Assembly (NCBI GenBank): GCA_023053575.1
Contig: JAKZAP010000013.1
Location: 19,749,689 to 19,813,688 of the forward strand
Direction of reading: 5' to 3'
DNA length: 64,000 nucleotides
Origin: Branchinecta lynchi
Lineage: Eukaryota; Arthropoda; Branchiopoda; Anostraca; Branchinectidae
The translations under genes were made by a program, and so were the position numbers. This document shows, piece after piece, positions 25,169 to 38,823 of this stretch. Under the pieces are notes generated by a model. The model was not told the DNA's origin and searched no databases. It saw nothing but the letters and a program-made list of their open reading frames with translations. Each line of letters opens with the position of its first letter. Within the stretch, counting starts at the first letter, position 1.

Positions 25169-25174
25169 CCCGGT
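25169..25174. repeat. Polinton target-site duplication, left
   Basis: CCCGGT lies immediately outside the left terminus and is repeated exactly at 38818-38823. Six base pairs is the standard Polinton duplication length. Confidence 0.93.
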
Positions 25175-25804
25175 AGTAGTTATATAAAGGGGGTTCTGGC
25201 CCACCCTTCCCCCAATTTCAAAACCCCATTTTAACATCAATTTCTTAAATTTTAACATCCTTTTTACCAAATTACCCCCCTTTTTAAGAACATTTTTATT
25301 TTCTTACTTCCAAAATAAAGGATACAAGAAATGAGAAATATTACCCTTTACTACATATAAAATACTACAATGTACACTACTTCTTTTTTTTTTTACATTT
25401 TTCATTTTTTATTCAAATATTACTGAGTAAACAGTTCTAAATCCACATATGTTTCTTTGTTCTTGTTTTCGCGTACAATAGGCTGCAAAACCAGATTTTT
25501 CTTTAAAAGTAATTCGTTAGCAATGGCATTATATTTCTGTGTTATAAACAAATCACATGGTTTGTCATTATGATTAATGACTACAACCAACTTATCACCG
25601 TATTTTGTCTTAGCAATTCTCATTTTAACAATAGTATATTTCAATCCTAGAACTAGTTCTTCTTTCCTGATTGTCTCATTGTATTTATTCATTCTGATTG
25701 TATTCAAGACTTCCTTTGTGGACTCCATTTATTAGGGGATGATTTTATTAAATAAAAATCCAGACTCACAAACTCACATACATATTTTTATTGATAATAT
25801 CTAA
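25175..25804 (+). repeat. left terminal inverted repeat, 630 bp
   Basis: It is the reverse complement of 38188-38817. I checked it by eye through the terminus, an 11-T run and the internal gene, and saw no mismatch. The inner boundary is set where CTAACG (left) and the inverse of ACATTAG (right) diverge. It contains a whole 102-codon gene and the last 39 bases of the capsid gene. Confidence 0.93.
25420..25728 (-). CDS. TIR-encoded small protein, OB-fold/SSB-like (left copy)
   Basis: This is a 102-residue protein inside the left TIR, with an identical copy in the right TIR. The central segment (about residues 25-60) reads VLGLKYTIVKMRIAKTKYGD followed by a KLVVVINHNDKPCDLF strand. Its strand spacing and 'TKYG' turn resemble small OB-fold-like, presumed single-stranded-DNA-binding proteins of other Polintons. 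That link is from memory and unproven. The start is in a CTAATAAATG context (25726-25735). A role in protecting displaced strands during protein-primed replication would fit a gene placed at both ends. The stop is followed by AATAAA. No signal peptide or membrane segment is seen. Confidence 0.8.
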   Translation of the reverse strand: MESTKEVLNTIRMNKYNETIRKEELVLGLKYTIVKMRIAKTKYGDKLVVVINHNDKPCDLFITQKYNAIANELLLKKNLVLQPIVRENKNKETYVDLELFTQ

Positions 25805-27139
25805 CGTAGCTTTTCTTTCATAATATATAACACAGTAAACATTATATGGTACGGGTTGATTATCTTTCAACGTTAAACTTATTTCAATATCAGCAGTTGT
25901 TCCATTATAAATATTTGACTCGTGTTTGGAAACATCGAAACAGAATAGTGGATATACTTCTTTAAATTCTTCTATACTAACAACACTACCAGTATCAAAT
26001 GCTAATTGTTTATAACCCAAATGTATGAACCTATTGTAAAGATTTGAGTATTTACATTTATCATCGCTAAAATTACATTTAAGTGGTTCTTCAGGATATT
26101 TATCCCCATTAATTCTAAGTTCTATGTCTGTTAAATTCATATGATCAAACACCATATTATTCATTAATTGATTGTTATGCTTTTCATTTTTCTGTAGCAT
26201 CACAACTACTTTTGTTGGATTGTTTCTCTCAGAAATAACTTTCCAAGTGTGTTCCTTATTTTGACTAACATCGCTTTTATAAGTATTACATGCTTCCCAC
26301 ATCAGATTATGCTTTTTATCCTTAGCAAGACCCTTTTCTAATTCACTCATCATTTCGATACTAGGAGCTACAATAGGAATCTTCCAGGATAAATACTCGA
26401 TTACTACTTTGAAATTAGTATTTCCATTTCTTATAATCATGTTGTTATCATCATTTCTTCTTAGAAATAATTTATGCGATGCACCTCTGAAGAATCGTTT
26501 GTTTCCTTTCAGAAATCCAAACAATTCTGATAATGGTAAATACATATTTACTAATTTACTGCTCTTTGTTCTGTTATATCTTTTTTCAAATCCTTTATTA
26601 TAATTATTATTATTTCTCAAACTGACTGTTCCACCCCCTGCTGCAGCCCCTGCAGCCCCTGCTACTACTGGAGTTGCAGTAAACGAAGCAATAACAGGAT
26701 TAATTTCTTTTCCTTGATTATAATCCTTATACCAGAAATGATTTCTTGCTGCACTTCTAGAATAATCATCAGAGTATTCAATCAACTTTGTAACGGTAGT
26801 TGTAATACCAACATGATTAATTTTTTCAACCGATTCATCGTTTATTACATATTCAGCGGTACTGAATAAATTAAATCCATTGTTCGTCAAAGTAGCAATA
26901 TCGGTTGCAGCTATATTATCTCCATTTTCTTTCACTATTCTTACACTAACATCAAGATAACTTTCACTTGGATAAAACCAGGAATCTAATTTCTTCGTTA
27001 CGAATTCAAACTCTGATTTATTAGATACATTCACATCTGTTTCTCGAATTTCTTTAAATTCGTATTTTACCACTGTATCATCCACAAGCGGTTCGTCAAA
27101 AATGTTCCATTGCGGACTGATAACTTTATTTACTGCCAT
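25766..27139 (-). CDS. Polinton major capsid protein (double jelly-roll type)
   Basis: This 457-residue protein begins MAVNKVISPQWNIFDEP. Mid-protein there is a LVNMYLPLSELFGFL segment, then FRGASHKLFLRRNDDNN and VVIEYLSWKIPIVAPS. That order (a PL-LFGF block, a K-T/F-L-L-R-DD turn, a W-P--P strand) matches the large capsid-like proteins of invertebrate Polintons as I know them. A Gly/Ala-rich loop (about residues 155-168) lies between strands. It would form the pseudo-hexameric capsomers of a virion, with the penton protein encoded two genes upstream. The start has TATAAATG (27137-27145). The stop is 39 bp inside the left TIR. At 457 residues it is short for the family. Structure prediction would settle the fold. 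Confidence 0.72.
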   Translation of the reverse strand: MAVNKVISPQWNIFDEPLVDDTVVKYEFKEIRETDVNVSNKSEFEFVTKKLDSWFYPSESYLDVSVRIVKENGDNIAATDIATLTNNGFNLFSTAEYVINDESVEKINHVGITTTVTKLIEYSDDYSRSAARNHFWYKDYNQGKEINPVIASFTATPVVAGAAGAAAGGGTVSLRNNNNYNKGFEKRYNRTKSSKLVNMYLPLSELFGFLKGNKRFFRGASHKLFLRRNDDNNMIIRNGNTNFKVVIEYLSWKIPIVAPSIEMMSELEKGLAKDKKHNLMWEACNTYKSDVSQNKEHTWKVISERNNPTKVVVMLQKNEKHNNQLMNNMVFDHMNLTDIELRINGDKYPEEPLKCNFSDDKCKYSNLYNRFIHLGYKQLAFDTGSVVSIEEFKEVYPLFCFDVSKHESNIYNGTTADIEISLTLKDNQPVPYNVYCVIYYERKATLDIINKNMYVSL

Positions 27140-27169
27140 TTATATAAGAAAGAAATTATTAAATAAAAC

Positions 27170-27526
27170 TTATTTCAGAATCTTTAATCCATTTCCAGTC
27201 ATTAACGTTTTGATCAAGTCCTGACTTCTTTGATTTAAAATCCTTTTATTTGTACCGATAAGATCCTTCATCGATTTTTTGTTTCCAATTACATCAATGA
27301 GTTCCTTCTTGTTTACATCGATCAGATCTTTCCCATATTCTATTGCTCTGTTTTTCAACAACTCAAATCTCGGTTTAATAATATTATTATACATTGACAT
27401 AGCCCCATCTTTTATTTGTTTTGCTGACGTTTGAAATAACTGGGAATTAACAATGTTTTTGAATACACTACCGATTCCACTTCCATACTGCTTTTTATAA
27501 AGTAATCGCTTATTATTAATCAACAT
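27170..27526 (-). CDS. small virion-type protein with adenain-like cleavage motif
   Basis: This 118-residue basic protein has the N-terminal segment YGSGIGSVFKNIVNSQLF (residues 15-32). The segment is glycine-rich then amphipathic, like membrane-lytic or core precursors of adenovirus-type virions. Near the C-terminus LMTGNG (about 109-114) fits the (M/I/L)xGx|G consensus of adenain-type proteases. This element encodes such a protease, so processing at maturation is plausible. The middle is helical and charged. The start has CTATAAATG (27524-27532). It sits between the penton and major capsid genes, which supports a structural role. The exact function is unknown. Confidence 0.6.
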   Translation of the reverse strand: MLINNKRLLYKKQYGSGIGSVFKNIVNSQLFQTSAKQIKDGAMSMYNNIIKPRFELLKNRAIEYGKDLIDVNKKELIDVIGNKKSMKDLIGTNKRILNQRSQDLIKTLMTGNGLKILK

Positions 27527-27558
27527 TTATAGGTAAATAATTTTATTTCACTAATCCT

Positions 27559-28281
27559 TTAAGCTTTTCTTAAATGCAGCACGTATCCAACGTTATCACC
27601 ATTCAAATCGATAGGTCTTCCCAACTGATCAGTAATTGTCATTCTCAAGGAGTAAATAAAGTCTTTTGTATTAATAGGAAGGTAGATTAATTGTCTAGGA
27701 TTCTCAACAATTTGACAACCCGGTTCTGTATTAGGAACAAATGTCCAAATGACATCTGATTTACTTTTGTTTACGATAGAACTGTTTACGAGAGAGCAGT
27801 GAATTTGAATTTTATCAACGCTTCTTGTTATATTCGGAAGCTTTGTACCTTCATTGATTTTCTTAGATATCTCACTATCCTTCTCAAATCCTAAAATCTG
27901 ACACAAGTCACTATTAAATCTAAACACATATTTTTCTTGTAATAGTATGACAAATCTCATAGATGCTGGATTGGATGAAATTACAATAGGACATTTATCT
28001 TTTGGGGTATCAAAATACTGACACAAAAAATAATTCAAACAATCATCGTTATACATCCCATTAGGAATAGTAACATTCATCCATTCTGTTGCATTATTAT
28101 CTTCATCTTTCCTGTATTGAAATGTATTATTTCCAAATTTATCACTTATATTATGCCACGAATACCACAAAGTACACTGATTCAAACCTATTTCATAATC
28201 CCAATTACGATTCAATTCGATTGGTTGACTAAATGTTATATCAATGATACTTTCATTACCTTCAATGTTTAACAACACCAT
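27559..28281 (-). CDS. Polinton minor capsid / penton protein (single jelly-roll)
   Basis: This 240-residue protein is rich in beta-strand. Early on it has WDYEIGLNQCTLWYSWHNIS, and near the C-terminus NPRQLIYLPINTKDF with the terminal strand pair LRMTITDQLGRPIDLNGD. The closing order (IYLP-N, L--TD--G--IDL-G, V-LHLR) is the hallmark of Polinton penton-like minor capsid proteins, which occupy the fivefold vertices. The start is in a CTAATAAATG context (28279-28288). It precedes the small virion protein and capsid genes. The length is normal for the family. Confidence 0.82.
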   Translation of the reverse strand: MVLLNIEGNESIIDITFSQPIELNRNWDYEIGLNQCTLWYSWHNISDKFGNNTFQYRKDEDNNATEWMNVTIPNGMYNDDCLNYFLCQYFDTPKDKCPIVISSNPASMRFVILLQEKYVFRFNSDLCQILGFEKDSEISKKINEGTKLPNITRSVDKIQIHCSLVNSSIVNKSKSDVIWTFVPNTEPGCQIVENPRQLIYLPINTKDFIYSLRMTITDQLGRPIDLNGDNVGYVLHLRKA

Positions 28282-28284
28282 TTA

Positions 28285-29109
28285 TTAGAAATATTTTTTA
28301 TATATTGAATTGTAATTTCTCTTCGTAAGAAATTTATTTCGCATTAACGAATCCAAAATATCAATAGCTTCATTTCTCACCTTGTCAGATGTATTTCCGT
28401 TTACTCTGCTACCTATCAAAGTGTATAATTTTGAAATCATTTCATCACAGTTCATAAATATTCCAGTTCCTTTTTGTTGAACTAAAAATGGGGAATTAGT
28501 TCGAATGCTGGTTAACCTCTCCTTGTATTCTCTTATAAATTCAAGGATTTCATCATAGCTAGAGTAACCTTTACCTTTTTTCCCGCCATAACTTTGACTT
28601 AGAGATGTCAAACGTTCTAGAGCCTCATCTATATCCGTATGATTCTTAATGTAATACGTAGGCATTTTAAAATAAGTATCAGTGCCACCCCGCGATTCTA
28701 CATGTTTTAAATTAATCTGATTTAACAACTCTTGGGTAATATCTTTATTCATATCAACGGATAGTGGTCCTAAATCGGGAGAAGGTTCTAAAGCGGGTGC
28801 TCGACTCACTTCCTCTGAATTTGGAATCTGTAAAGCTGTTTTAAATGTATCACCTAATCTGATAAACCGTCTTCTTGAATTATTATCACCTTCCTGTAGT
28901 TTATTAATTATCGTTTCAGCGTTCTCTTGTAATTTTTTGATGGTGTCTTTAGTGTTTTCTTTTTGTGCTATAATAACTGGAGCGTTTAATTCTGAAGCAT
29001 ATTCCCGAAATCCTGCCTTCTCCATCTCATTTTGTTGAACCTTGCTTCTCTGAATTTCTCTGTTCTTCACTATATCCGATAACATATCACTCAAGCGTCT
29101 TGAATCCAT
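28285..29109 (-). CDS. coiled-coil Polinton protein of unknown function
   Basis: A 274-residue, highly charged protein. Residues 1-85 form predicted coiled coil. Around residues 210-220 there is a 'KGTGIFMNCDEMISKLYTLI' element, then a helical C-terminus ending NKFLTKRNYNSIYKKYF. A G-G-F-x-(N/D)-x-L-L-I-GS helix pair followed by a -K--Y--I-K-Y- end is also found in unannotated proteins encoded beside capsid genes in other invertebrate Polintons (recalled, not searched). It may be a minor virion or scaffold protein. The start has GTATATAAATG (29107-29117). It ends 4 bp before the penton start codon. Confidence 0.65.
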   Translation of the reverse strand: MDSRRLSDMLSDIVKNREIQRSKVQQNEMEKAGFREYASELNAPVIIAQKENTKDTIKKLQENAETIINKLQEGDNNSRRRFIRLGDTFKTALQIPNSEEVSRAPALEPSPDLGPLSVDMNKDITQELLNQINLKHVESRGGTDTYFKMPTYYIKNHTDIDEALERLTSLSQSYGGKKGKGYSSYDEILEFIREYKERLTSIRTNSPFLVQQKGTGIFMNCDEMISKLYTLIGSRVNGNTSDKVRNEAIDILDSLMRNKFLTKRNYNSIYKKYF

Positions 29110-29125
29110 TTATATACAAGTAATT

Positions 29126-30097
29126 TTATTTCATAATAAATTTTGAAAGTTCTTTTTCATAAAACCCTCCTTGAATTAATTCCCCACTTTTGTCAGATAT
29201 TTCATAAGTAATGGGAATGGTAGGTCTGATGGTTGCTATCTGAAATACTTCATCCGTATAATTAGGTAAATATCCTTTATCGAAAATACTTTTTTCTTTT
29301 TTAATTCTGACTAAATCCCCTACTTTGACGTTTCCTGTGATTTTGTAGTCATCTACTGGAGGAAACAGAGCACTAAAAACCTTTTTCTGATTAACCTTTT
29401 TACTAGCATCAACTGGTTTCATTTGTATTGAACGGTGGTACGAGTTATTATAATTACTCACAAATAAAGGTAAAATATCAATCCAATTAGTAGTGTTATT
29501 GTGAGTGAAATATTTCCATAACTTTTCTTTAAGCGTTCTGTTGAATCGTTCTACAATTTGCGCTTTCAATTCGCTTTCAGATGCAAACCAGTGTATGCCG
29601 TTATTTTTCAAAAAAGTTTGAACATTTCTCATCACAAATTCTTTACCTTTATCAGTTTGTAGTTTCTTAGGAATTCTTTCTTTAAATATAACACTGAATG
29701 CTTTTATTATTTCAGCACCCGTTTTGTCTTTTAGAGGGATACACCAAGCATATTTACTAAAGCAATCAATAACAGTTAAAATGTAATTTGTTTTATTATT
29801 TTCTTTTTTATATTTCTGCATGTCAACTAAATCAGCTTGCCATTGCTCATCAACATAGTGAACATACACTCGCCTCCTTTCAAAGTTATGATAGGAAGGT
29901 TTGTGTAACGTATACACATTCTCATTTTGCAACACATTTTTTATTTTATCCTTGGAAACCTTAACACCATTTTCTTTTAATTTTCTGTAAATATCATCCA
30001 CACCTGAATAATTAGAATAATACGTCTTTAAAATATCTGTTTCTGCGTTGAGGTTTTTTTTAAAAAGTGATTTTTCCTCGATCCGCAAATAACACAA
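29126..30097 (-). CDS. retrovirus-like (DDE) integrase of the Polinton
   Basis: The frame gives 323 codons. The rve core shows D89 in EQWQADLVDM, D149 in LQTDKGKEF and E183 in IVERFNRTLK, a complete DD(33)E triad as in Polinton integrases. A C-terminal SH3/Tudor-like region (about 255-320, VGDLVRIKK ...) follows. It inserts the element and makes the 6-bp duplication. The N-terminal helical part (AETDILKTYY...VYTLHKP) is typical, but no ATG lies upstream of it in this frame. The frame opens after a TAA at about 30112-30114, and the nominal first codon is TTG. There is no TAAATG motif either. The likely route is a -1 shift from the zinc-ribbon ORF upstream at a T TTA AAA site, entering at about codon 14. 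Confidence 0.93.
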   Translation of the reverse strand: MCYLRIEEKSLFKKNLNAETDILKTYYSNYSGVDDIYRKLKENGVKVSKDKIKNVLQNENVYTLHKPSYHNFERRRVYVHYVDEQWQADLVDMQKYKKENNKTNYILTVIDCFSKYAWCIPLKDKTGAEIIKAFSVIFKERIPKKLQTDKGKEFVMRNVQTFLKNNGIHWFASESELKAQIVERFNRTLKEKLWKYFTHNNTTNWIDILPLFVSNYNNSYHRSIQMKPVDASKKVNQKKVFSALFPPVDDYKITGNVKVGDLVRIKKEKSIFDKGYLPNYTDEVFQIATIRPTIPITYEISDKSGELIQGGFYEKELSKFIMK

Positions 30098-30195
30098 TTC
30101 CCTTTCAGCATTGGAACATTATTTTTTTGTGACACTGCCTTAAACATTGATTCAGTGTCAGTGCTCTTTTTACATTTCATACAATAAATCTCCAT
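30028..30195 (-). CDS. small zinc-ribbon protein overlapping the integrase frame
   Basis: This ORF of 55 codons is too short for most gene finders. It starts at 30195 in a CTAATAAATG context. It has two CxxC knuckles, C5/C8 (YCMKC) and C34/C37 (NCVIC), 26 residues apart, in a basic protein. Such CxxC-CxxC mini-proteins ('MxCxKCxxxT') are widespread in Polintons and related viruses. Its end overlaps the integrase frame. Codons 44-47 form a T TTA AAA AAA run on which a -1 slip would place ribosomes in the integrase frame. The stop TAA ends at 30028. It may act alone, as an N-terminal zinc module of the integrase, or both. Confidence 0.75.
   Translation of the reverse strand: MEIYCMKCKKSTDTESMFKAVSQKNNVPMLKGNCVICGSRKNHFLKKTSTQKQIF
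30055..30064 (-). promoter_or_regulatory. candidate -1 frameshift site, zinc ribbon to integrase
   Basis: In the zinc-ribbon frame the codons read TTT-TTA-AAA-AAA, so T TTA AAA (30064-30058) is a canonical X XXY YYZ heptamer. A AAA AAA overlaps it. Slipping one base back continues exactly in the integrase frame. I saw no strong stem downstream by eye. Confidence 0.6.
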
Positions 30196-30226
30196 TTATT
30201 AGAAAACAATTTTTATAAACGAAAAG

Positions 30227-30559
30227 CTACCAACCCTTCATTTTCCGCTGGATGTAGGAAATGCAGTGAAAACCACAGTTTAATTCATCTATATTTTGAA
30301 CAGCAAGATTTTCATAAGCTATTTTTTTCTTTGAAGTTTTTAGATATTTAACTATTTCTTTTCCTGGAGGAATACCGAAAGAATCGAAAAATTCGACATG
30401 GGGATATTCAGGTAGATTACAATAGGCAACCCAATGTGTTCCAGGCATTCCACGTTTGTCATAGTTGATTACACCACATTCCGAATCGTTTATATGTTTG
30501 GGTAGCGTATCTAAAGAGAACACACCTCTAAACTGTGGTATACTCCCTAATGCATCCAT
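30227..30559 (-). CDS. adenain-like cysteine protease of the Polinton
   Basis: The frame has 110 codons from its only ATG. The catalytic order His-Asp-Cys is present: GTHWVAYC (His about 42), VEFFDSFG (Asp about 59) and ELNCGFHC (Cys about 93). The early block FRGVFSLDTLP is typical. The enzyme would cleave virion precursors. The conserved N-terminus that I expect before this (a PLTNFDI-type block) is encoded upstream of the ATG in the same frame, with no start codon back to a TAG at about 30625-30627. So the ATG at 30559 probably is not the real start. The frame is -1 to the basic virion protein upstream and is reached at an A AAA AAC heptamer, adding 19 codons before this Met. No TAAATG motif precedes it. 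Confidence 0.9.
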   Translation of the reverse strand: MDALGSIPQFRGVFSLDTLPKHINDSECGVINYDKRGMPGTHWVAYCNLPEYPHVEFFDSFGIPPGKEIVKYLKTSKKKIAYENLAVQNIDELNCGFHCISYIQRKMKGW

Positions 30560-30582
30560 AATATCAAAATTGGTTAGAGGTC

Positions 30583-31140
30583 CTACTTTACTTTTGCTTC
30601 TTTTTTGATGTCCCCGTTTTTTGACTTCCTAGGCCTTCCACGTACCCCATTACCCACAACTTTTTGTGTTCCAGGAAGTTTAAGCGCTCCACCTATGTTG
30701 ACATCATCGGTTTCCTTCCCACGTACGCCATTACCCACAACTTTTTGTGTTCCAGGAAGTTTTAGCGCTCCACCTGTGTTGGTCATTTTATCCATAATTT
30801 TCTTACCAGCGAATGTACCCAAAGCAGCAGCACCACTTGTTAAAGCTGCCTTACCAAGGGTAATTGCTAGCGGTATTAAAAATGGAAGTAATCCACCCTT
30901 TTGAATCGCTTCTTTCATCTGTTTGTATGATACATCAATATCACAACCCTTATTATTCATTTTACATGTTTCAATTTTATCAATTTGTCGTTTACTTAAA
31001 AGTAACTTAACTGGTTCTCGTTCATTTTGTCTACTATGACTAACACGTATCTGACATTTTTGTTTAGCACCAAAACATTTCTTCAGCTTTCCTTTCTGAA
31101 GCTTTGATAAATAAACTGTATACTCCATTGTTTCAACCAT
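30583..31140 (-). CDS. basic virion-type protein with hydrophobic segment and internal repeats
   Basis: 185 residues. Residues 8-80 are two similar basic units ('LSKLQKGKLKKC...', 'LSKRQIDKIETC...', 'VSYKQMKEAIQKGG'). A hydrophobic Ala/Gly-rich segment (about 82-115, GGLLPFLIPLAITLGKAAL) follows. Then GGALKLPGTQKVVGNGVRG occurs twice (123-141 and 150-168), and a Lys-rich tail ends the protein. Similar proteins with a KGG-LPFL...ALGALAG segment accompany Polinton capsid genes and are thought to be core or membrane-active virion components. The start has CTAATAAATG (31138-31147). Near its end the codons TCA-AAA-AAC create a slippery A AAA AAC, and the protease frame follows in -1. This mirrors a retroviral Gag-Pro arrangement. 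Confidence 0.75.
   Translation of the reverse strand: MVETMEYTVYLSKLQKGKLKKCFGAKQKCQIRVSHSRQNEREPVKLLLSKRQIDKIETCKMNNKGCDIDVSYKQMKEAIQKGGLLPFLIPLAITLGKAALTSGAAALGTFAGKKIMDKMTNTGGALKLPGTQKVVGNGVRGKETDDVNIGGALKLPGTQKVVGNGVRGRPRKSKNGDIKKEAKVK
30616..30622 (-). promoter_or_regulatory. candidate -1 frameshift site, virion protein to protease
   Basis: A AAA AAC, in frame as X XXY YYZ at codons 173-175 of the 185-codon ORF. This is the same heptamer used at the gag-pro junction of MMTV. A -1 slip avoids the TAG at 30583-30585 and stays open into the protease. A GGGGAC run follows directly. I could not find a convincing pseudoknot by eye. Confidence 0.65.
30639..30778 (-). repeat. 81-bp tandem duplication inside the basic virion protein gene
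   Basis: The block CCATTACCCACAACTTTTTG plus flanks occurs twice with an 81-bp offset (30641 and 30722) and few differences. It keeps the frame and encodes the repeated GGALKLPG...GNGVRG peptide. Confidence 0.85.
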
Positions 31141-31170
31141 TTATTAGGGAATAAATTTATCTTATAAAAT

Positions 31171-31785
31171 TTATTTACCAGCCATCATTTTTTCTATTCT
31201 GGTAACGAATGGTTTGTCAACAGGTTTTAGCTCTAGCTCTAGAAGCCTTTTTAAAATATTTACTACTGCTCTTTCAATATTATCGATACGAGTTTTTTGA
31301 CCAGCAATCTTTCCTTCAATTATACCGTTATGGGTGTGTTGCCCCAGAAGCTTTTTGTCATAATCTAAAAGATTCATAGTTAACGTTGCTAAATTAACAG
31401 CATCATTTTTGTTTCTAGGGTTTTGAACATTTGTTATCAACTTGTTTTCAGCGTTAATCTCTTTATCATTAACTCGAACTATTTCTTTTACAAATAACCC
31501 TTTATCTTTGTTCCTTACCAACGAATTATCAGGAGAATCATCTATCGCAGTTAATCTGTTGATATCTTCGCTAAAGTATTGGTTGGCTTGCACTTGTCCT
31601 GCAGTCATTTGTTCTTTAAATTGATTCATAATCACAGTCATAGATCTTAAGCTAATAGCATCCTTGTCTGCCTTGGAATCACCTAAATTTATAATTCGTC
31701 TATCATGTAGGTTAATGTTACCATTTTCGTCAGTAACTTTCGATTCGTTACTAACCTTTTTTCCAACACTACCAAATTTATTCAT
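31171..31785 (-). CDS. putative trimeric attachment fibre
   Basis: 204 residues. Two units have the phage/virus fibre pattern (I/L)-xN(L/V)xx-(P/S)xxxxDA(I/V)xL: RRIINLGDSKADKDAISL at 29-47 and KLITNVQNPRNKNDAVNL at 115-132. Such units build triple beta-spiral or trimeric shafts in receptor-binding fibres. Between and after them are heptad-like stretches (about 50-75 and 160-185, with ARTRIDNIERAVV-like spacing) and a QHTHNG turn that may bind metal. I infer a fibre-like or host-attachment protein, which would support the element being able to make virions. The start has TATAATAAATG (31783-31793). It sits between the ATPase and the basic virion protein. Confidence 0.6.
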   Translation of the reverse strand: MNKFGSVGKKVSNESKVTDENGNINLHDRRIINLGDSKADKDAISLRSMTVIMNQFKEQMTAGQVQANQYFSEDINRLTAIDDSPDNSLVRNKDKGLFVKEIVRVNDKEINAENKLITNVQNPRNKNDAVNLATLTMNLLDYDKKLLGQHTHNGIIEGKIAGQKTRIDNIERAVVNILKRLLELELKPVDKPFVTRIEKMMAGK

Positions 31786-31801
31786 TTATTATAGAAATAA
31801 A

Positions 31802-32479
31802 TTATCCGGTAAATTTTTCAAAGTTTTTCCTGTACTTAAGGGTTTTATCTTTTATTTTTAAATCTATGAAGAAAAAACCGTAGCCCTTGGTTGCCGTCTC
31901 GAATTGTTTGAGAAATTTTTCATTGTCTATACTGGATACATGGCTTTGTCTTATTAATTTTACTTCTTTTGGATTAGAACACTGAAAGAATGCAAAATAA
32001 TTGCACTGGAGCCTTACCACCTTTGGCGTTTTATGATAGCTCTGTGATAAATAAACAATCGAGGCATTTTTCTTTCTTCCTCTTATGAATAAATCTTCTA
32101 TTTTCTTCTGGTCTTTTTCAGTAACAAAATCGTCAAAGATAATCAAGTTTTGGTACTCGGGGTCTAAGTCGTCAACATCGACAATATCATCAAGATTGTT
32201 ACTTACTGTTAAGACTTTCGATTTGCATTGTGACTCCAAAGTGGTTAAATTGGTTATAAGGTCTTGATATTTATCTTCTTCAAGATCTTTAGCATACAAG
32301 TATATTCGGTTGAAACAAAGATATTCATAAATTAAATTCAAAAGAAGGTTAGTTTTCCCTGTTCCAGAACTACCACAAATTAAGAGTCTAAATGGCCACT
32401 GAGGTGCAAGGTCGTGCTTATTCTGATAAGTGTTCTTTTCACTAAAATCATAGACTTTGATTGGAGCCTTTTCATTCAT
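31802..32479 (-). CDS. A32/FtsK-like DNA-packaging ATPase
   Basis: 225 residues. Walker A is GSSGTGKT at 36-43, preceded by the RLLICG strand. Walker B is NLIIFDDF at 111-118. A conserved SQSYHKTPKVVR sensor-like segment follows at about 155-166. The size and motif spacing fit the packaging ATPases of Polintons and NCLDV-type viruses, which pump DNA into the capsid. The start is in a CTAAATAAATG context (32477-32487). The 21-bp palindrome array lies directly upstream, between this gene and the end of PolB. Confidence 0.92.
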   Translation of the reverse strand: MNEKAPIKVYDFSEKNTYQNKHDLAPQWPFRLLICGSSGTGKTNLLLNLIYEYLCFNRIYLYAKDLEEDKYQDLITNLTTLESQCKSKVLTVSNNLDDIVDVDDLDPEYQNLIIFDDFVTEKDQKKIEDLFIRGRKKNASIVYLSQSYHKTPKVVRLQCNYFAFFQCSNPKEVKLIRQSHVSSIDNEKFLKQFETATKGYGFFFIDLKIKDKTLKYRKNFEKFTG

Positions 32480-32511
32480 TTATTTAGGAAGAATTTTTCA
32501 TTATAAGATTT

Positions 32512-32750
32512 ACTTGAGTATTTTAAGTATATACTTGAAGTTTTGAAGTAGGTACTTGATTTTTTTAAGTAGGTACTTGAATTTTTTAAGTAGGTACTTG
32601 AAGTTTTGAAGTAGGTACTTGAATTTTTTAAGTAGGTACTTGAATTTTTTAAGTAGGTACTTGAATTTTTTAAGTAGGTACTTGATTTTTTTAAGTAGGT
32701 ACTTGAATTGATTTAAGTAGGGACTTGATTTTTTTGAAGGTGGTACTTGA
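32512..32750. repeat. 12-copy, 21-bp-phased palindrome array
   Basis: ACTTGA recurs at 32512, 32533, 32554, 32575, 32596, 32617, 32638, 32659, 32680, 32701, 32723 and 32745. The period is exactly 21 bp for ten units and then 22 bp. Units read AAGTAGGTACTTGAATTTTT, so each holds the inverted repeat AAGTA-GG-TACTT followed by a T-run. The array fills the PolB-ATPase gap and touches the PolB stop. Confidence 0.95.
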
Positions 32751-32752
32751 AT

Positions 32753-35700
32753 TTAATGTTTATAACCTAAAGGCAAAGTTGTAAATTTATCGCTTGTTAC
32801 TATCCTTTTATCATCCTTAGGATCTAACGCTTTTTTATTCTGTTCTTCTAGAAACATATTGTGCTTGTATGATCTTAAGTTATACTGGGTTATAGAAAGG
32901 TTTTCCGTTTTACCAAACAGTACATCCTTATAGTTTTGAATCGTAATTTTATCTTTAACTATATTGGTTTTTATTCCTTTCAGTTTTTTGCTAGCCTTTG
33001 AAGGGTCTTGGTTGTCCTTTAAATAAGCATATACTTTTGATCGTAATCCAACAAACTCTGTCATAACCTGTCCACCTAATTCATCTTTCATCATTCCTAT
33101 CACTTTCTTATTTACACTAGGAAACCTATATGGATTATCTTTCGCATAATCAGATGTATCGAACCTCTCATTCAAATCCTGTTTGATATCTTGATAAAAA
33201 TCTTCAGTTCTAATATCATATATGAAAGAATCAGTGTCCATATAACACAAATCAATTTTATCTCCATATTTAGGCTTCATATAATCATAATGGAATTCAT
33301 ACATCAATAACTTGGATAGTTCCAATACAGCAAAGCCGATATACATTGGTTTGTCTAATTTTATCTTTTCCTTCGACATTCTTGCCACTGAAAAGTTTTC
33401 ACTGAATATTATTTCAGATTTAAAGTTGGGTTTCTTTATTATTTTTTCTCTTGTTGCATCATCCGTTATTATTTCCATATCCGCTCGCTTCCTTACGTTT
33501 TCCATAGTTTTTCCAAAGCAAGCATTATTCATCAGTTTAAAGAAATCCTTTTCAAAATCATTTGTACCTTTAGTTCTAAGTGCTGTGTTGTGGTCTATAT
33601 ATCCTTTTAAGTAAGCACTTTCAGTGAATCCTAGTATTCTGTGTACTCTCTTCAATATCAAGCCTTTTTGTAAATAGAATTCTAGATTCCTGTGGTGAAC
33701 TACATAGTTGGTTTTATCTAATACTGTGGTACATAGCTTACCGTTAAAGTGTTCGGGTGCTAATGGTAAATCCTTGTGTAATTCGTGTAGTTCTTTTGGA
33801 TATTCTAAATCTACTTCATATATAGCACCTACATTCTGTAATTTCATTATCGAATTGATATGAGTTTTTAGATGGTTGTAATACTCGATTGATTCGTATT
33901 CATTCCTTTCTTTCAAATCATCCGGTATGGAAATGAATTGGAAATCATTCGCTGGTAAATTCTGCGACATTGCCCACCCATATAAATTATTAGCATCTAA
34001 ATACATTAAATAATTAGATGGCTTATTCTTATTATAATCACTTGTATATTTATTATTTGCTTTTGCGTATCTTTTTATACATTGGGATACACCACCTCTT
34101 ATTCCCTTTTCAATGAATGTATACATGTCTTCCTTTGAGAATAACGGCAAGTCTACTTTCGAATGCTTTAGGAAAGCATTCCATGTTAGTCCTGGAGCTG
34201 AGAAGTAATGAAGTGGATCCAGATCATAATTATGTATACAAACGTTCCTGAAATTCTCCACAACGTCTGATAGAATTAACACATCACTTTTTAGATATAA
34301 CTTGGTATAATCAAGTAATGTTTCACAGTTAAATTGCTTCCATATAGATACCGCTCTTTTATAATCACTTTTGTCAATACCTTTCCCTGTCAACCTAGAA
34401 TAAAAGCTTTCTATGGATGGTAAGTTTGTACAATTCATTTTATCGAAACTGTCTACGAATTCATACGGATATACCCCTTTTTTAATTATTTCTTTGAATT
34501 CATCGTCATTTTTGAAGCTGTTAGATGTGAATTTGAAATTCTCTCTTAGATGATTACAGGGTACTTTGCAATCACATTTTGCTAAATTTGCTGATAGTTT
34601 GTCTAAAGATGAAGCCATAAATCTAATCGAATCTATAAACCGGATCTCATATTTTATTTCCGTATCCGTCTTTCTTATACTTACTGATTTCGAGAATGAT
34701 ATGAAACTTTCTGCACTTTCAAAAATTCCGTTATCAGGTATCAATTCTCTAACAAACAGATGGGAATCATATTTAGATAAATTATGCATTACTACCGGGA
34801 TATGCCTAGGAATCCTGTATTTCATATTACATTCAGCATGAGCAAATCCCCTATCTTCTCCTGTCATGTGGTCGTGATCAAAGTGAGGATTTTCAGTAAT
34901 TTCAGTTGTACAGATGTGACAAGTCTTATTCATTAGATTTTTCCATTTTTCGGTAATTTCTGCATTGGTATAAGTATGGTTTCTTTGTCTGCTTTCATAT
35001 TTGTTTGCAATTTCTGTGGATACTTTTGTAATGGTTTTAACAAAATGTTTTGCAGCGTCTTCACCGAAATAATCGTAGTATTTGTTCTGGTTTGTATCAA
35101 AGGAACAGCATACCTGAAATCCGTAAGCAAATGGCTTCTGTTTGGCCACTTTTATTGTTTTCTTCCCGTTTACCTGATTGTATTCTTCGTTATAAGACTC
35201 AAAGTCTGCTATTATGCAATAAGGTACTTTCATTTGTTTTGCAATATTTTTATATTGTATACTTGAACCTTCAGGAGGCATTATTATATCAGGATCTTCG
35301 CAATTATTTTTACTTTCATGTTTTTCAAAGCATTCTTCCTTCTTAAAATGCCTTCCGCAATAAGTGCAGAGGTATGTCTTTGTTTTCTTTTTAGATATTT
35401 GAGGACCAACTAATCTGCTCAGATCCTTTACCAGTACATAATGATTATCGAAATACAATAAATGAACGATATGTTTTGCAGTTTTCCCATTAATTGTACT
35501 TTTTAGTATATGACTTCTGATAATTTTCTCTTTTTCAATTTGAAATAAACAAATCTTAATGTTGTATCTATTTTCAAATTTGTGTATATCTTTAGTATCC
35601 ATTGGGAAGTTGGTAACCCCTTCGAAATCAAATTCGTTTTCATATTGTTTATAATTTGATAGTCTATCAACATGATCCTTAGCTGGATGTAGATTTGCTA

Positions 35701-36817
35701 AGATAGACCAAAGGAAACATTTCTGGTCGTTATTTTTTATATTTATACACGCTTTTTTATTTTTTACGAAATCTGGTAGTATTTTAAACGTTCCTCCCAT
35801 GTAAGATTCTATTCGCGTCATCCTATAATCAATTCCTTCATACCGACTAAATTGTAGCCCAGATCGAGGGGTATTACTTAAAGAACTAAGTCTCTTGTTA
35901 TTATCATTCAAATGATTATGAGCAAGAATGCTATTTTTATTTAAAATCCAAGAAGTACTGTTGTAATATACTACTACTTCTTCATCATTCTCCTGTCGAT
36001 GGAAAATAACCCGAGTTACAAACTGAACTCTATATTGATTTATTTCGTTCATTCGCCGCTGTATATCTGCGAAAGTAAAAGCAATAAGAGTATGCTCCTC
36101 AACTCCATTACCTTGAACTGAAACGTTTACAGTGAATATATTCTCACTTTCGCTAAAAATAGTAGGCTGTTGTTCTTCTTCCGTTCTAAATACATGATCA
36201 GGAATTAATTTTTCTTGTTTAATTTTTTTCTTATTTATGAAGAGAGTTGATAAATCGACTACTTTTTCTTTATTGTTATCACTTCTTTCGATTTGAGCTC
36301 TAATGATATTACTATTTTTCTTTATAGTATCTTCGTGTTTTTTAATAATATTATTATAGTATTCTCCAACTCTTTTTAGTACTTCTTCTCGGTTTCCGCG
36401 AGTTGATAGGTTCTTGTTTTTCAGAAATCTTTTTAATTCGCTTGTCTCTTTTTCTTTGTTATCATTGTATTCTTGTTTTAGTTTTGTAATGGTGATATTA
36501 TTTTCTCTTATCTCATCTTCCAGAATGGTTCGTAATCTCGGTTCTGGTTTGTAGTCGGATGGTCTGTTCTTATTATGAGTTCTTTCGTTTCTGCGTTCAA
36601 TTTTAATTTTATCTTCTGCTATCAAAATATACTTATTAAGATGGTTTATTATATTATTTGTTATTTCATGTTTCTTAGCTCCATTTGTTTTGATTTTATT
36701 AATTTTCGCATAAGTCCGCAGTTCATTATATGTGTATAGCGACAATCTTTGTATAACCACTTTGTTGTTTGATATAACCTTTTTACAAAGCTGAATAACC
36801 TCTGCAGTATTCATCAT
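32753..36817 (-). CDS. protein-primed family B DNA polymerase
   Basis: 1354 residues. Exonuclease motifs are CIIADFESYN (D538, E540), MHNLSKYDSHLF (about 678-687) and YLKSDVLILS (about 841-850). Polymerase motif A is YLDANNLYGWAM (D941), motif B is KLMNNACFGKTMEN (about 1094-1107), motif C is YMDTDS (D1194, D1196), and LRSKVYAY is near 1258-1265. N-terminal extras are two SAP-like segments (about 25-62 and 125-155), a region with KCFLWSIL (C367) and DNHYVLVKDLSRL (H459) that recalls an OTU-like fold, a CTYCGRHF zinc finger (about 484-506) and an HNH/EndoVII-like insert (CHIC...DHDH...CN, about 633-664). It would copy the element from a terminal protein primer. The start is in CTATTAAATG (36815-36824). 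The stop touches the 21-bp array. Full length and intact. Confidence 0.97.
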   Translation of the reverse strand: MMNTAEVIQLCKKVISNNKVVIQRLSLYTYNELRTYAKINKIKTNGAKKHEITNNIINHLNKYILIAEDKIKIERRNERTHNKNRPSDYKPEPRLRTILEDEIRENNITITKLKQEYNDNKEKETSELKRFLKNKNLSTRGNREEVLKRVGEYYNNIIKKHEDTIKKNSNIIRAQIERSDNNKEKVVDLSTLFINKKKIKQEKLIPDHVFRTEEEQQPTIFSESENIFTVNVSVQGNGVEEHTLIAFTFADIQRRMNEINQYRVQFVTRVIFHRQENDEEVVVYYNSTSWILNKNSILAHNHLNDNNKRLSSLSNTPRSGLQFSRYEGIDYRMTRIESYMGGTFKILPDFVKNKKACINIKNNDQKCFLWSILANLHPAKDHVDRLSNYKQYENEFDFEGVTNFPMDTKDIHKFENRYNIKICLFQIEKEKIIRSHILKSTINGKTAKHIVHLLYFDNHYVLVKDLSRLVGPQISKKKTKTYLCTYCGRHFKKEECFEKHESKNNCEDPDIIMPPEGSSIQYKNIAKQMKVPYCIIADFESYNEEYNQVNGKKTIKVAKQKPFAYGFQVCCSFDTNQNKYYDYFGEDAAKHFVKTITKVSTEIANKYESRQRNHTYTNAEITEKWKNLMNKTCHICTTEITENPHFDHDHMTGEDRGFAHAECNMKYRIPRHIPVVMHNLSKYDSHLFVRELIPDNGIFESAESFISFSKSVSIRKTDTEIKYEIRFIDSIRFMASSLDKLSANLAKCDCKVPCNHLRENFKFTSNSFKNDDEFKEIIKKGVYPYEFVDSFDKMNCTNLPSIESFYSRLTGKGIDKSDYKRAVSIWKQFNCETLLDYTKLYLKSDVLILSDVVENFRNVCIHNYDLDPLHYFSAPGLTWNAFLKHSKVDLPLFSKEDMYTFIEKGIRGGVSQCIKRYAKANNKYTSDYNKNKPSNYLMYLDANNLYGWAMSQNLPANDFQFISIPDDLKERNEYESIEYYNHLKTHINSIMKLQNVGAIYEVDLEYPKELHELHKDLPLAPEHFNGKLCTTVLDKTNYVVHHRNLEFYLQKGLILKRVHRILGFTESAYLKGYIDHNTALRTKGTNDFEKDFFKLMNNACFGKTMENVRKRADMEIITDDATREKIIKKPNFKSEIIFSENFSVARMSKEKIKLDKPMYIGFAVLELSKLLMYEFHYDYMKPKYGDKIDLCYMDTDSFIYDIRTEDFYQDIKQDLNERFDTSDYAKDNPYRFPSVNKKVIGMMKDELGGQVMTEFVGLRSKVYAYLKDNQDPSKASKKLKGIKTNIVKDKITIQNYKDVLFGKTENLSITQYNLRSYKHNMFLEEQNKKALDPKDDKRIVTSDKFTTLPLGYKH

Positions 36818-36944
36818 TTAATAGGGGAACATTTTTATTAATGAATTTCCCAGTCTGCGTTTTCTCAGTCGTAAAGAAAATCATTGAATTTCTATTACCT
36901 TACTACTCTGTGAGAAAAATGTGTACACGGATTTCGCACATTCT

Positions 36945-37215
36945 TCACTACTCTTCATGTGACAAATGTGTGTGTGTAGTGGAATCCCACTTTTCGTACT
37001 ACTCTTCATGTGACAAATGTGTGTGTACTGGAATCCCACTTTCTGTACTACTCTTCATTTGACAAATTTGTGTGTACTGGAATCCCACTTTCTGTACTAG
37101 TCTTCATTTGACAAATTTGTGTGTACTGGAATCCCACTTTCTGTACTACTCTTCATTTGACAAATTTGTGTGTACTGGAATCCCACTTTCTGTACTACTC
37201 TTCATTTGACAAAAA
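36945..37215. repeat. 49-bp tandem array in the divergent region
   Basis: CTTCAT recurs at 36953, 37002, 37051, 37100, 37149 and 37198, a strict 49-bp period. The unit holds TGACAAATTTGTG, itself a palindrome-like CACAAATTTGTCA, and CTGGAATCCCACTTTC. It lies between the start of PolB (leftward) and the start of the membrane protein gene (rightward). Confidence 0.95.
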
Positions 37216-37340
37216 TCATATATTTTTTTAAACTTTGACTCACAAGCTAAAAAAAAAAGAGAACCATACTGTAAAAGTAGCCTAGATGGTGGGTGTGTGG
37301 AAATTCGAAAAAATCAAATAATTTTTCGAAACAATTTTAT

Positions 37341-37353
37341 TATATAATAAATG
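37341..37353 (+). promoter_or_regulatory. TAAATG initiator of the rightward gene
   Basis: TATATAATAAATG overlaps the start codon. Together with 38257-38266 this shows the motif follows gene direction, not one strand's base bias. Confidence 0.6.
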
Positions 37354-37773
37354 GAAGAATTAGAAAAGAAAATGTATGTTTACCGTCGCAGTTACAAGTA
37401 CTACAATCGTATAAGTAATAGCTTACTTGTATCCAAATTCCTCTTTTCGGCAGCAGGAATGTCTGCGTTTCTAGTGCTACCTTTAGCTTCTTTAAGTTTG
37501 GGTGCTGTTATCATCGAAATAATTGAAAAGCAGTTAAGCATTGCTGATAGAAAAGCAGAATTTAGGACAAATTACAATTTTTATACTGAGTTGTTCTCGA
37601 TGCTAAAATGCGGACAGTTAACAATTGAGGAGGTAATTCAGAGAGAAACAGAGATGCGTAAAACCTTTCGATTTTTTCCTCACGAAAAATACATGAAACA
37701 GGTTCGCTTGAACGGTTATAAATATTGTAAGAACGAAACTATCAAAATACAAGAAAATTTACCAAAAATATAA
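37351..37773 (+). CDS. two-segment membrane protein of the Polinton
   Basis: 140 residues, the only rightward gene outside the TIR. A helical N-terminus (LEKKMYVYRRSYKYYNRISN) precedes a hydrophobic hairpin at about 25-60 (LLVSKFLFSAAGMSAFLVLP, then LASLSLGAVIIEII). A charged helical C-terminus holds GQLTIEEVIQRETEMRK. A glycine/alanine-rich hairpin followed by a '(I/L)S/TDEEF'-like helix occurs in a common but uncharacterised protein of other Polintons. This one has the same plan in diverged form. It is probably inserted in a membrane. A role in envelope-less egress or entry is conjecture. The start has TATAATAAATG. Confidence 0.65.
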   Translation: MEELEKKMYVYRRSYKYYNRISNSLLVSKFLFSAAGMSAFLVLPLASLSLGAVIIEIIEKQLSIADRKAEFRTNYNFYTELFSMLKCGQLTIEEVIQRETEMRKTFRFFPHEKYMKQVRLNGYKYCKNETIKIQENLPKI

Positions 37774-38187
37774 AATTTTTTGCAAAACCTCCCACCCCAG
37801 ACTTTGAAGATTGAAGATGTTGTTAAAATATCATATCTACACACATATACATATGTCTGGGGTAGCCCCGTATGGGGAGGAAACTCATCTCAGAGTTTTT
37901 TTCGCCATCACTCACTATCAACGGATTGCTGGTAGTGGGATTCGATCTCACGACATCGTTGATACAATGGTTTCTAAGTTTGCACGACTTAGAGCATTCT
38001 GCCAACGGGGCCCGAAAAATCTCCGCAACGAAATGTTTTGTGATGTGAATCATCTAATGCGCAATGAGATTTCCTGTTTTTTGTTGCCTTAAGAGCTTTA
38101 TCAGTACTAGAGGTAGAATTGTTGGTTACATTGAGGAGATTTTAATTTGATGATGTGATGAATATCGATTTGGATTTTTTTTTTACA
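37774..38187. other. Polinton interior, no convincing ORF
   Basis: The ORFs at 37811-38092 (+) and 37823-38053 (-) have no TAAATG motif and no recognised content. They overlap the tRNA-like sequence. I do not call them genes. Confidence 0.6.
37926..38011 (-). tRNA. degenerate tRNA-Leu-like sequence in the Polinton
   Basis: On the minus strand, box A-like TGGCAGAATGCTCTAAG (from 38004) aligns with tRNA-Leu TGGCCGAGTGG-TCTAAG. An anticodon-loop-like CTTAGAA would give anticodon UAG (Leu). A possible long variable stem, CATTG...CGATG, and box B AGATCGAATCCC with CCCAC follow. The box spacing suits a class II tRNA. The acceptor and anticodon stems do not pair well, so it is a pseudogene or a tRNA-like element. 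Confidence 0.45.
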
Positions 38188-38817
38188 TTAGATATTATCA
38201 ATAAAAATATGTATGTGAGTTTGTGAGTCTGGATTTTTATTTAATAAAATCATCCCCTAATAAATGGAGTCCACAAAGGAAGTCTTGAATACAATCAGAA
38301 TGAATAAATACAATGAGACAATCAGGAAAGAAGAACTAGTTCTAGGATTGAAATATACTATTGTTAAAATGAGAATTGCTAAGACAAAATATGGTGATAA
38401 GTTGGTTGTAGTTATTAATCATAATGACAAACCATGTGATTTGTTTATAACACAGAAATATAATGCCATTGCTAACGAATTACTTTTAAAGAAAAATCTG
38501 GTTTTGCAGCCTATTGTACGCGAAAACAAGAACAAAGAAACATATGTGGATTTAGAACTGTTTACTCAGTAATATTTGAATAAAAAATGAAAAATGTAAA
38601 AAAAAAAAGAAGTAGTGTACATTGTAGTATTTTATATGTAGTAAAGGGTAATATTTCTCATTTCTTGTATCCTTTATTTTGGAAGTAAGAAAATAAAAAT
38701 GTTCTTAAAAAGGGGGGTAATTTGGTAAAAAGGATGTTAAAATTTAAGAAATTGATGTTAAAATGGGGTTTTGAAATTGGGGGAAGGGTGGGCCAGAACC
38801 CCCTTTATATAACTACT
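38188..38817 (-). repeat. right terminal inverted repeat, 630 bp
   Basis: Exact inverse of 25175-25804 by eye, the same length with no indel. The terminus reads ...CCTTTATATAACTACT at 38817. Confidence 0.93.
38264..38572 (+). CDS. TIR-encoded small protein, OB-fold/SSB-like (right copy)
   Basis: The 102-residue product is identical to that of 25420-25728. The start is at CTAATAAATG (38257-38266). Both copies are transcribed towards the nearest terminus. Confidence 0.8.
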   Translation: MESTKEVLNTIRMNKYNETIRKEELVLGLKYTIVKMRIAKTKYGDKLVVVINHNDKPCDLFITQKYNAIANELLLKKNLVLQPIVRENKNKETYVDLELFTQ

Positions 38818-38823
38818 CCCGGT
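38818..38823. repeat. Polinton target-site duplication, right
   Basis: CCCGGT, identical to 25169-25174. Confidence 0.93.

Follow-up and report, generated by a model that had tools for sequence, protein, structure and literature searches.

The Polinton and its genes

An intact Polinton lies within the 64-kb stretch of DNA analysed here (the window), and its ends can be read directly:

25175-38817, no strand assigned: intact Polinton with terminal inverted repeats (TIRs) and a 6-bp target duplication

The TIR arms (25170-25808 and 38184-38822) are 639 nt long and 99% identical, have the ends AGTAGT...ACTACT, and are flanked by the duplication CCCGGT at 25169-25174 and 38818-38823. Pfam searches identified an RVE integrase (PF00665, E 8.7e-15), a double jelly-roll capsid gene (PF21738, E 2.3e-27) and an A32-type ATPase (PF04665, E 1.9e-13). 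Together with an adenain-like protease, the long TIRs and the 6-bp duplication, these identify the element as a Polinton/Maverick. The ORF in the position of the polymerase (32753-36817, 1354 aa) has SAP and endonuclease VII-like matches and matches no polymerase family in Pfam at E 0.01; to judge from motifs recognized in it, it may be a protein-primed DNA polymerase B. All genes other than those of the protease and the integrase are intact single ORFs.

Each terminal repeat holds a 102-aa ORF (25420-25728 and 38264-38572), which is hence present in two copies and has no Pfam match. The ORF at 31171-31785 has a sub-threshold Pfam match (E 5e-5) to the N-terminal domain of the phage T7 tail fibre, and might possibly encode an attachment part of the particle. 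No Rfam family and no tRNA was found within the window.

The PX/protease junction

The protease is preceded on the minus strand by an ORF referred to here as PX, with which it overlaps in a different frame:

30583-31140, minus strand: PX, a basic/hydrophobic ORF of 185 codons, the zero frame of the first junction
30616-30622, minus strand: slippery heptamer A AAA AAC in the phase of PX (S-K-N), read from the sequence
30583-30628, minus strand: overlap of the PX frame and the -1 protease frame, 46 nt
30227-30628, minus strand: adenain/vUlp1-like protease (Pro) in the -1 frame, with no start codon before PLTNFDI

PX has no Pfam match and its fold model is of low confidence (58.8); it is probably a minor virion protein. 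At the heptamer, the PX frame reads TCA AAA AAC GGG and the -1 frame GTC AAA AAA CGG GGA. PX reads ...RPRKSKNGDIKKEAKVK up to its stop at 30585-30583. The -1 frame, reading EVKKRGHQKRSKSKVGPLTNFDIMDALG..., is open from 30628, directly behind a stop at 30631-30629, until the stop at 30229-30227. A heptamer of the form X XXY YYZ is thus found in zero-frame phase within an overlap with an open -1 frame. Ahead of the conserved PLTNFD(I) block, the protease frame has no ATG, CTG, GTG, ACG or other near-cognate codon, and its first ATG (30559-30557) lies behind the block, in the ATT ATG with which PLTNFDI ends. The preliminary description had placed the protease in the -1 frame relative to the 185-codon ORF, with A AAA AAC in phase at 30622-30616, no start codon ahead of the conserved block and an open frame all the way through to the protease; these frames had been read correctly.

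The structural model of the protease has a mean pLDDT of 84.8, and its best structural matches are adenovirus proteinases (best E 4.7e-7, TM 0.64-0.73). The Pfam C5 match is weak (E 0.059) and below the cut-off.

When the PX tail was resampled synonymously with the codon use of the element, AAAAAAC appeared in 4.5% of the versions and any in-phase slippery heptamer in 31%; taken alone, the heptamer is moderately unlikely by chance and is weak evidence. Past the stop, the -1 frame extends PX by 119 codons and DUF5679, the carrier at the second junction, by 301 codons, as compared with 3-21 codons at seven other gene stops.

The DUF5679/integrase junction

The preliminary description missed another junction of the same kind, in which a small zinc-ribbon ORF is followed by the integrase:

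30028-30195, minus strand: DUF5679 zinc-ribbon ORF of 55 codons, the zero frame of the second junction, starting with TAA-ATG
30193-30198, minus strand: TAA-ATG of DUF5679, the same motif as at the start of PX (31143-31138)
30055-30064, minus strand: second slippery site, with T TTA AAA (30064-30058) and A AAA AAA (30061-30055) in the phase of DUF5679
30028-30118, minus strand: overlap of the DUF5679 frame and the -1 integrase frame, 91 nt
29126-30118, minus strand: RVE integrase (Int) in the -1 frame, with no ATG before its conserved N-terminal part

The DUF5679 match (Pfam PF18930, E 6.8e-8) covers 30028-30180, and the start was put at 30195 because of the TAA-ATG motif and the longer N-termini of relatives. 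At the second site, the DUF5679 frame reads CAC TTT TTA AAA AAA ACC. Some slippery heptamer turns up in 74% of synonymous versions of the DUF5679 overlap, so that finding one there is by itself hardly informative. Near-cognate codons do exist ahead of the conserved part of the integrase, unlike in the protease, and a non-AUG start is conceivable for this enzyme. The evidence is weaker at the second site than at the first, which is the more firmly supported junction.

Start signals

All ten minus-strand genes that have a start codon carry an in-frame stop directly before it, as TAA-ATG. In the background of the element, 13 of 298 minus-strand ATGs have TAA in front of them, and the chance of finding it at all ten genes is 2e-16. 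The gene starts with this motif are:

25728, 27139, 27526, 28281, 29109, 30195, 31140, 31785, 32479 and 36817, minus strand: TAA-ATG gene starts
37351 and 38264, plus strand: TAA-ATG gene starts, one of the two being the other copy of the terminal-repeat ORF

The motif, which often stands as CTAATAAATG, resembles the poxvirus late motif TAAATG and seems to serve the element as a start or promoter signal. The protease and the integrase lack it, as would be expected if neither ever started on its own.

Copies in the host genome

The host genome (G000, 576 Mb) is rich in the element, with 947 protease and 1815 integrase candidates at a first look, from which the best 150 and 115, respectively, were scored. 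The best 150 protease matches are 95-100% identical; the same 133-codon open frame is found in 147, while 3 have an internal TGA. A second Polinton family was not seen in this genome among the best matches of searches with the protease and with P0006 and P0079, relatives of PX and the integrase.

For alignment, 79 copies were used: the 20 best and 59 from lower in the protease list, with identities down to 0.916. This set includes the window copy (L004) and excludes L041, which is a duplicate of L014, and the distant L001 and L002; L083-L094 were counted apart from it. A AAA AAC is found at the same distance from the position of the PX stop in every one of the 79, one of which (L077) has a stop just before the heptamer. 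A sequencing or assembly error in the A run was rejected for the first site on these grounds, and a single broken copy was rejected on the same grounds together with the purifying selection among copies described below.

Twelve further junctions came from the P0006 search and were mostly chosen for their odd frame lengths. Ten of these have the heptamer in phase; one of the exceptions has a longer run, and in the other the heptamer is lost and the protease also has a stop. PX and Pro are in register in two of the twelve, namely the one with the longer run and one of the ten with the heptamer. The same two copies are the only ones among the 150 PX matches scored with P0006 in which the PX frame exceeds 300 codons and is thus long enough to reach Pro.

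The second site is more variable. T TTA AAA is in phase with an unchanged DUF5679 length in 70 of the 79 copies, the site departing in the other 9, and some in-phase slippery heptamer is present in 77; natural length changes put DUF5679 and the integrase in register in 2. PX is intact in 68 of the 79, Pro is open in 75 and DUF5679 is intact in 71, with TAA-ATG at the start of PX in 78 and at that of DUF5679 in all 79. PX contains a tandem repeat with a 31-codon unit (GGALxLPGTQxVVGxG...) that occurs in different numbers from copy to copy, giving lengths of 185, 216 and 247 codons.

Selection and diversity

Selection was gauged by pN/pS from distinct differences to the window copy, using 76 (PX), 78 (Pro) and 75 (Int) copies, without L004, taken by alignment score. 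PX has a pN/pS of 0.42. Pro gives 0.27 in its -1 frame versus 1.28 and 1.10 in the other frames, a value that is lowered because the copies were found by protease similarity; PX and Int are free of this bias, and Int gives 0.25 in its -1 frame versus 0.88 in one wrong frame. Third codon positions account for 42 of the 72 variable sites in PX, 23 of 39 in Pro and 10 of 14 in Int. The -1 codons of both the protease and the integrase are under purifying selection among copies that are nearly all split, and since nearly all of them share the split, the split frames must have been translated since the copies diverged.

From the heptamer to the PX stop, none of 40 sites varies in at least two haplotypes, whereas PX has 72 such sites among 515 and Pro 39 among 353 (P 0.004). 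If singletons are counted, 5 of the 40 sites vary (P 0.02), but 51 of 872 40-nt windows are then equally quiet. Six changes were seen in this overlap, one of them synonymous in the PX frame and five not. The DUF5679/Int overlap is not quiet, its diversity (0.0478) exceeding that of Int (0.0279) and of the DUF5679 sequence outside it (0.0088).

Relatives

A search at E 1e-3 found two homologues of PX, P0005 (86% identity) and P0006 (62%). P0005 ends SKNGETKKEAKVK. P0006 ends PKNVKRVKKEKIP; counting back from the stop by eye puts its K-N at the same distance in a changed tail, whereas the aligner chose another placement. The predicted form of the nearest protease, P0001 (86%), starts at the matching internal ATG, which is what the lack of an upstream ATG would lead one to expect, and the integrase P0007 (89%) also begins at an internal ATG. 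The heptamers of P0005-P0008 and P0079 are deduced from protein.

The integrases P0008 (67%) and P0079 (51%) begin with MWLQEKSFFKK and MWLKKESFFKK. When the reading is moved one base on, either start can encode C-G-x-K-K-N/S-H/Q-F-L-K, which is the end of DUF5679. Among 126 proteins (42,091 positions), the tail can be encoded in a shifted reading in these two only, in both at residue 1; the motif had been drawn up with knowledge of the window and P0008, and P0079 was not foreseen. In the host genome, 114 of 115 matches align with P0079 from its residues 1-4 in the integrase frame, and the other from residue 17. The open frames of these matches (312-341 codons) are too short for an in-frame fusion with DUF5679. 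The overlap between DUF5679 and the integrase thus appears to be old, given its deduced presence in P0008 and P0079 and the P0079 alignments in the host genome. In P0008 and P0079, but not in the window, the overlap includes an ATG that is in frame with the integrase, so internal initiation is possible in these two.

Elsewhere, DUF5679 and the integrase are fused in frame. According to Pfam, this is so in 6 of the best 120 of 4708 integrase homologues (P0051, P0077, P0087, P0107, P0114 and P0118), from which it follows that a fused product makes sense. Apparent in-frame protease-integrase proteins are P0013 and P0065, in which the Pfam C5 match is below the cut-off, and, by eye, P0057, P0066, P0068 and P0084, the last of which has no protease match in Pfam.

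In distant relatives, the enzymes start on their own: the proteases P0002 and P0003 have a Met upstream of the block, and the integrase of L001 likewise has a start of its own. The split layout is therefore not general to Polintons, but holds within this lineage. Scans of viral contigs with the protease, capsid and integrase found no relative, nor did a plasmid search. The scan of genome contigs found two distant adintovirus-like loci, L001 and L002, in a MAG filed as Ignavibacteria; their integrase has its own ATG, and the contigs are most likely contamination.

The comparison of the junction in related Polintons, which the preliminary description had put forward as a check, thus came out in two ways. 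The heptamer holds in the 79 copies from the same genome and, as deduced from protein, in the nearer relatives, and the arrangement breaks down in P0002 and P0003, whose separate protease starts are among the outcomes that the preliminary description had listed as speaking against its reading. Site and frame are probably conserved across the nearer relatives, to go by their protein sequences.

RNA structure

Many but not all known -1 frameshift sites have a stimulatory structure. At the sites tested here, no stem-loop or pseudoknot 5-9 nt downstream is supported, and shuffled sequences fold just as well as the RNA behind the two sites (z +0.34 and -0.09). A candidate pseudoknot can be formed 6 nt after the first heptamer, pairing AUCAAAA with UUUUGAU and ACCUCUAA with UUAGAGGU, but it is matched by 48 of 400 shuffles and has a mismatch in its second stem in 45 of the 79 copies. 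The pseudoknot that was to be sought after 30616 thus finds no support in either the fold or the shuffle tests. Frameshifting, if it occurs, may be modest or reliant on another stimulus.

Two proposed frameshifts and the alternatives to them

Our favoured reading, to which we assign a probability of roughly 0.8, is that two separate programmed -1 ribosomal frameshifts make the protease and the integrase; the ribosome as the agent, the efficiency and the packaging logic are the parts that we infer. For the first junction, a Gag-Pro-like -1 layout had already been proposed, and it is still the best-supported reading, considering the conserved heptamer, the selection, the low variation in the overlap, the lack of a protease start and the second -1 junction.

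Under the two-frameshift reading, most ribosomes on PX would stop at 30585-30583, while a minority would slip one base back on A AAA AAC into the protease frame and produce a PX-protease fusion of about 304 residues (175 + 129). Most ribosomes on the DUF5679 ORF would likewise stop after 55 codons, with a minority slipping on TTT TTA AAA AAA A into the integrase frame to yield a DUF5679-integrase fusion of about 356 residues (46 + 310). Both enzymes would thereby be kept scarce relative to their carriers, and the protease could enter the particle with the virion protein, as it does in retroviral Gag-Pro.

The frames could also be joined by RNA polymerase, if it slipped on the A runs and added one A to a small share of the transcripts. 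The length of the second site, T5A8, makes this plausible, there is an A6 at PX/Pro, and the two copies with natural length changes have DUF5679 and the integrase in register. The run at the first site is just A6, however, and the heptamer there is in exact codon phase. A C after the run and a codon-phased heptamer are typical of ribosomal slip sites, and the first site has this form. Slippage by the polymerase is, in our estimation, unlikely.

It is quite improbable that a short intron joins the frames or supplies the protease and the integrase with a start. GT and AG dinucleotides in suitable phases can be picked out by eye around the junction, but the AG just upstream of the block is preceded by a purine-rich stretch (aaaaaagaagcaaaagtaaagtag) and no pyrimidine tract, and the other genes of the element, as noted above, are intact single ORFs. 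Complete vertebrate Mavericks also have intronless ORFs, according to the available passages of PMC8097293, and this was counted against an intron.

With termination followed by reinitiation, ribosomes would resume 23 nt past the PX stop, at the ATG of 30559, and yield a protease that lacks the first block. Positions -3 and +4 of this ATG are A and G, and P0001 was predicted from the matching one. Even so, PLTNFDI is matched in P0002 and P0003, which start upstream of it; it stays open and contributes to a helix of the model (residues 20-27), and there would be no reason for its conservation if it were untranslated. The integrase would also be left unexplained, and we consider reinitiation very improbable.

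That the family was amplified from a broken master copy, with protease and integrase supplied in trans by other elements, would account for the many near-identical copies that share the split (150 were scored out of 947 candidates), but is hardly credible: in diverged copies, the -1 frames of Pro and Int still change in the manner of protein-coding sequence, and relatives at 67% and 51% identity are deduced to have this integrase overlap as well.

Comparison with known systems

Retroviral Gag-Pro(-Pol) uses -1 frameshifting, and MMTV, for example, has two sites. As in retroviruses, the Polinton has a putative structural protein first and the protease in the -1 frame behind A AAA AAC, with a second candidate -1 site for another enzyme, and the enzymes concerned are the protease and the integrase. 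Unlike retroviruses, the Polinton is a dsDNA element with two independent carrier ORFs rather than one polyprotein; the carrier of its integrase is a DUF5679 zinc ribbon, its protease is a cysteine protease of the adenain type, and no stimulatory RNA structure was found. The likeness would be in how the element works, and no claim of membership is made. On balance, and with less assurance than for the two frameshifts themselves, we think that this animal Polinton lineage makes its protease and integrase only via -1 ribosomal frameshifting at two independent sites, each in a carrier gene of its own, as a convergent dsDNA counterpart of retroviral Gag-Pro-Pol.

Polintons with in-frame fusions join the same domains, DUF5679 or protease, to the integrase. 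The fused parts are then made in equal amounts, and slippage is not needed.

The preliminary description knew of no Polinton with such a layout, and none was found in the accessible passages of the literature on Polinton, Maverick and adintovirus frameshifting, which describe no frameshifting for the protease or integrase of these elements (PMC11071308 was covered for the terms protease, fused, DUF5679 and zinc). The nearest case is PMC11071296, in the available parts of which KnotInFrame predictions place slippery sites close to where certain adintovirus penton genes end (3'), giving an alternative penton C-terminus. Like the case presented here, this is a predicted slippery site in a virion gene of a Polinton-related animal virus. 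It differs in that it leads to neither protease nor integrase, and the passages available contain no conservation or selection analysis (PMC11071296). The frameshifts mentioned in the corresponding parts of PMC10120064, PMC12721341, PMC8097293 and PMC12567637 concern decay, assembly error, search settings or an RNA virus.

Implications

Gene callers that depend on start codons would truncate or miss the protease and the integrase in such elements, whose intactness would then be underestimated; P0001 and P0007, which start at an internal Met, look as if they had been cut in this way. The TAA-ATG start rule offers a handle on how Polinton genes get switched on. If the two-frameshift reading is true, a large DNA transposon with virion genes sets the dosage of its enzymes, and perhaps their packaging, by a retroviral recoding trick, and the same recoding would serve the two types of enzyme that Polintons have in common with retroviruses.
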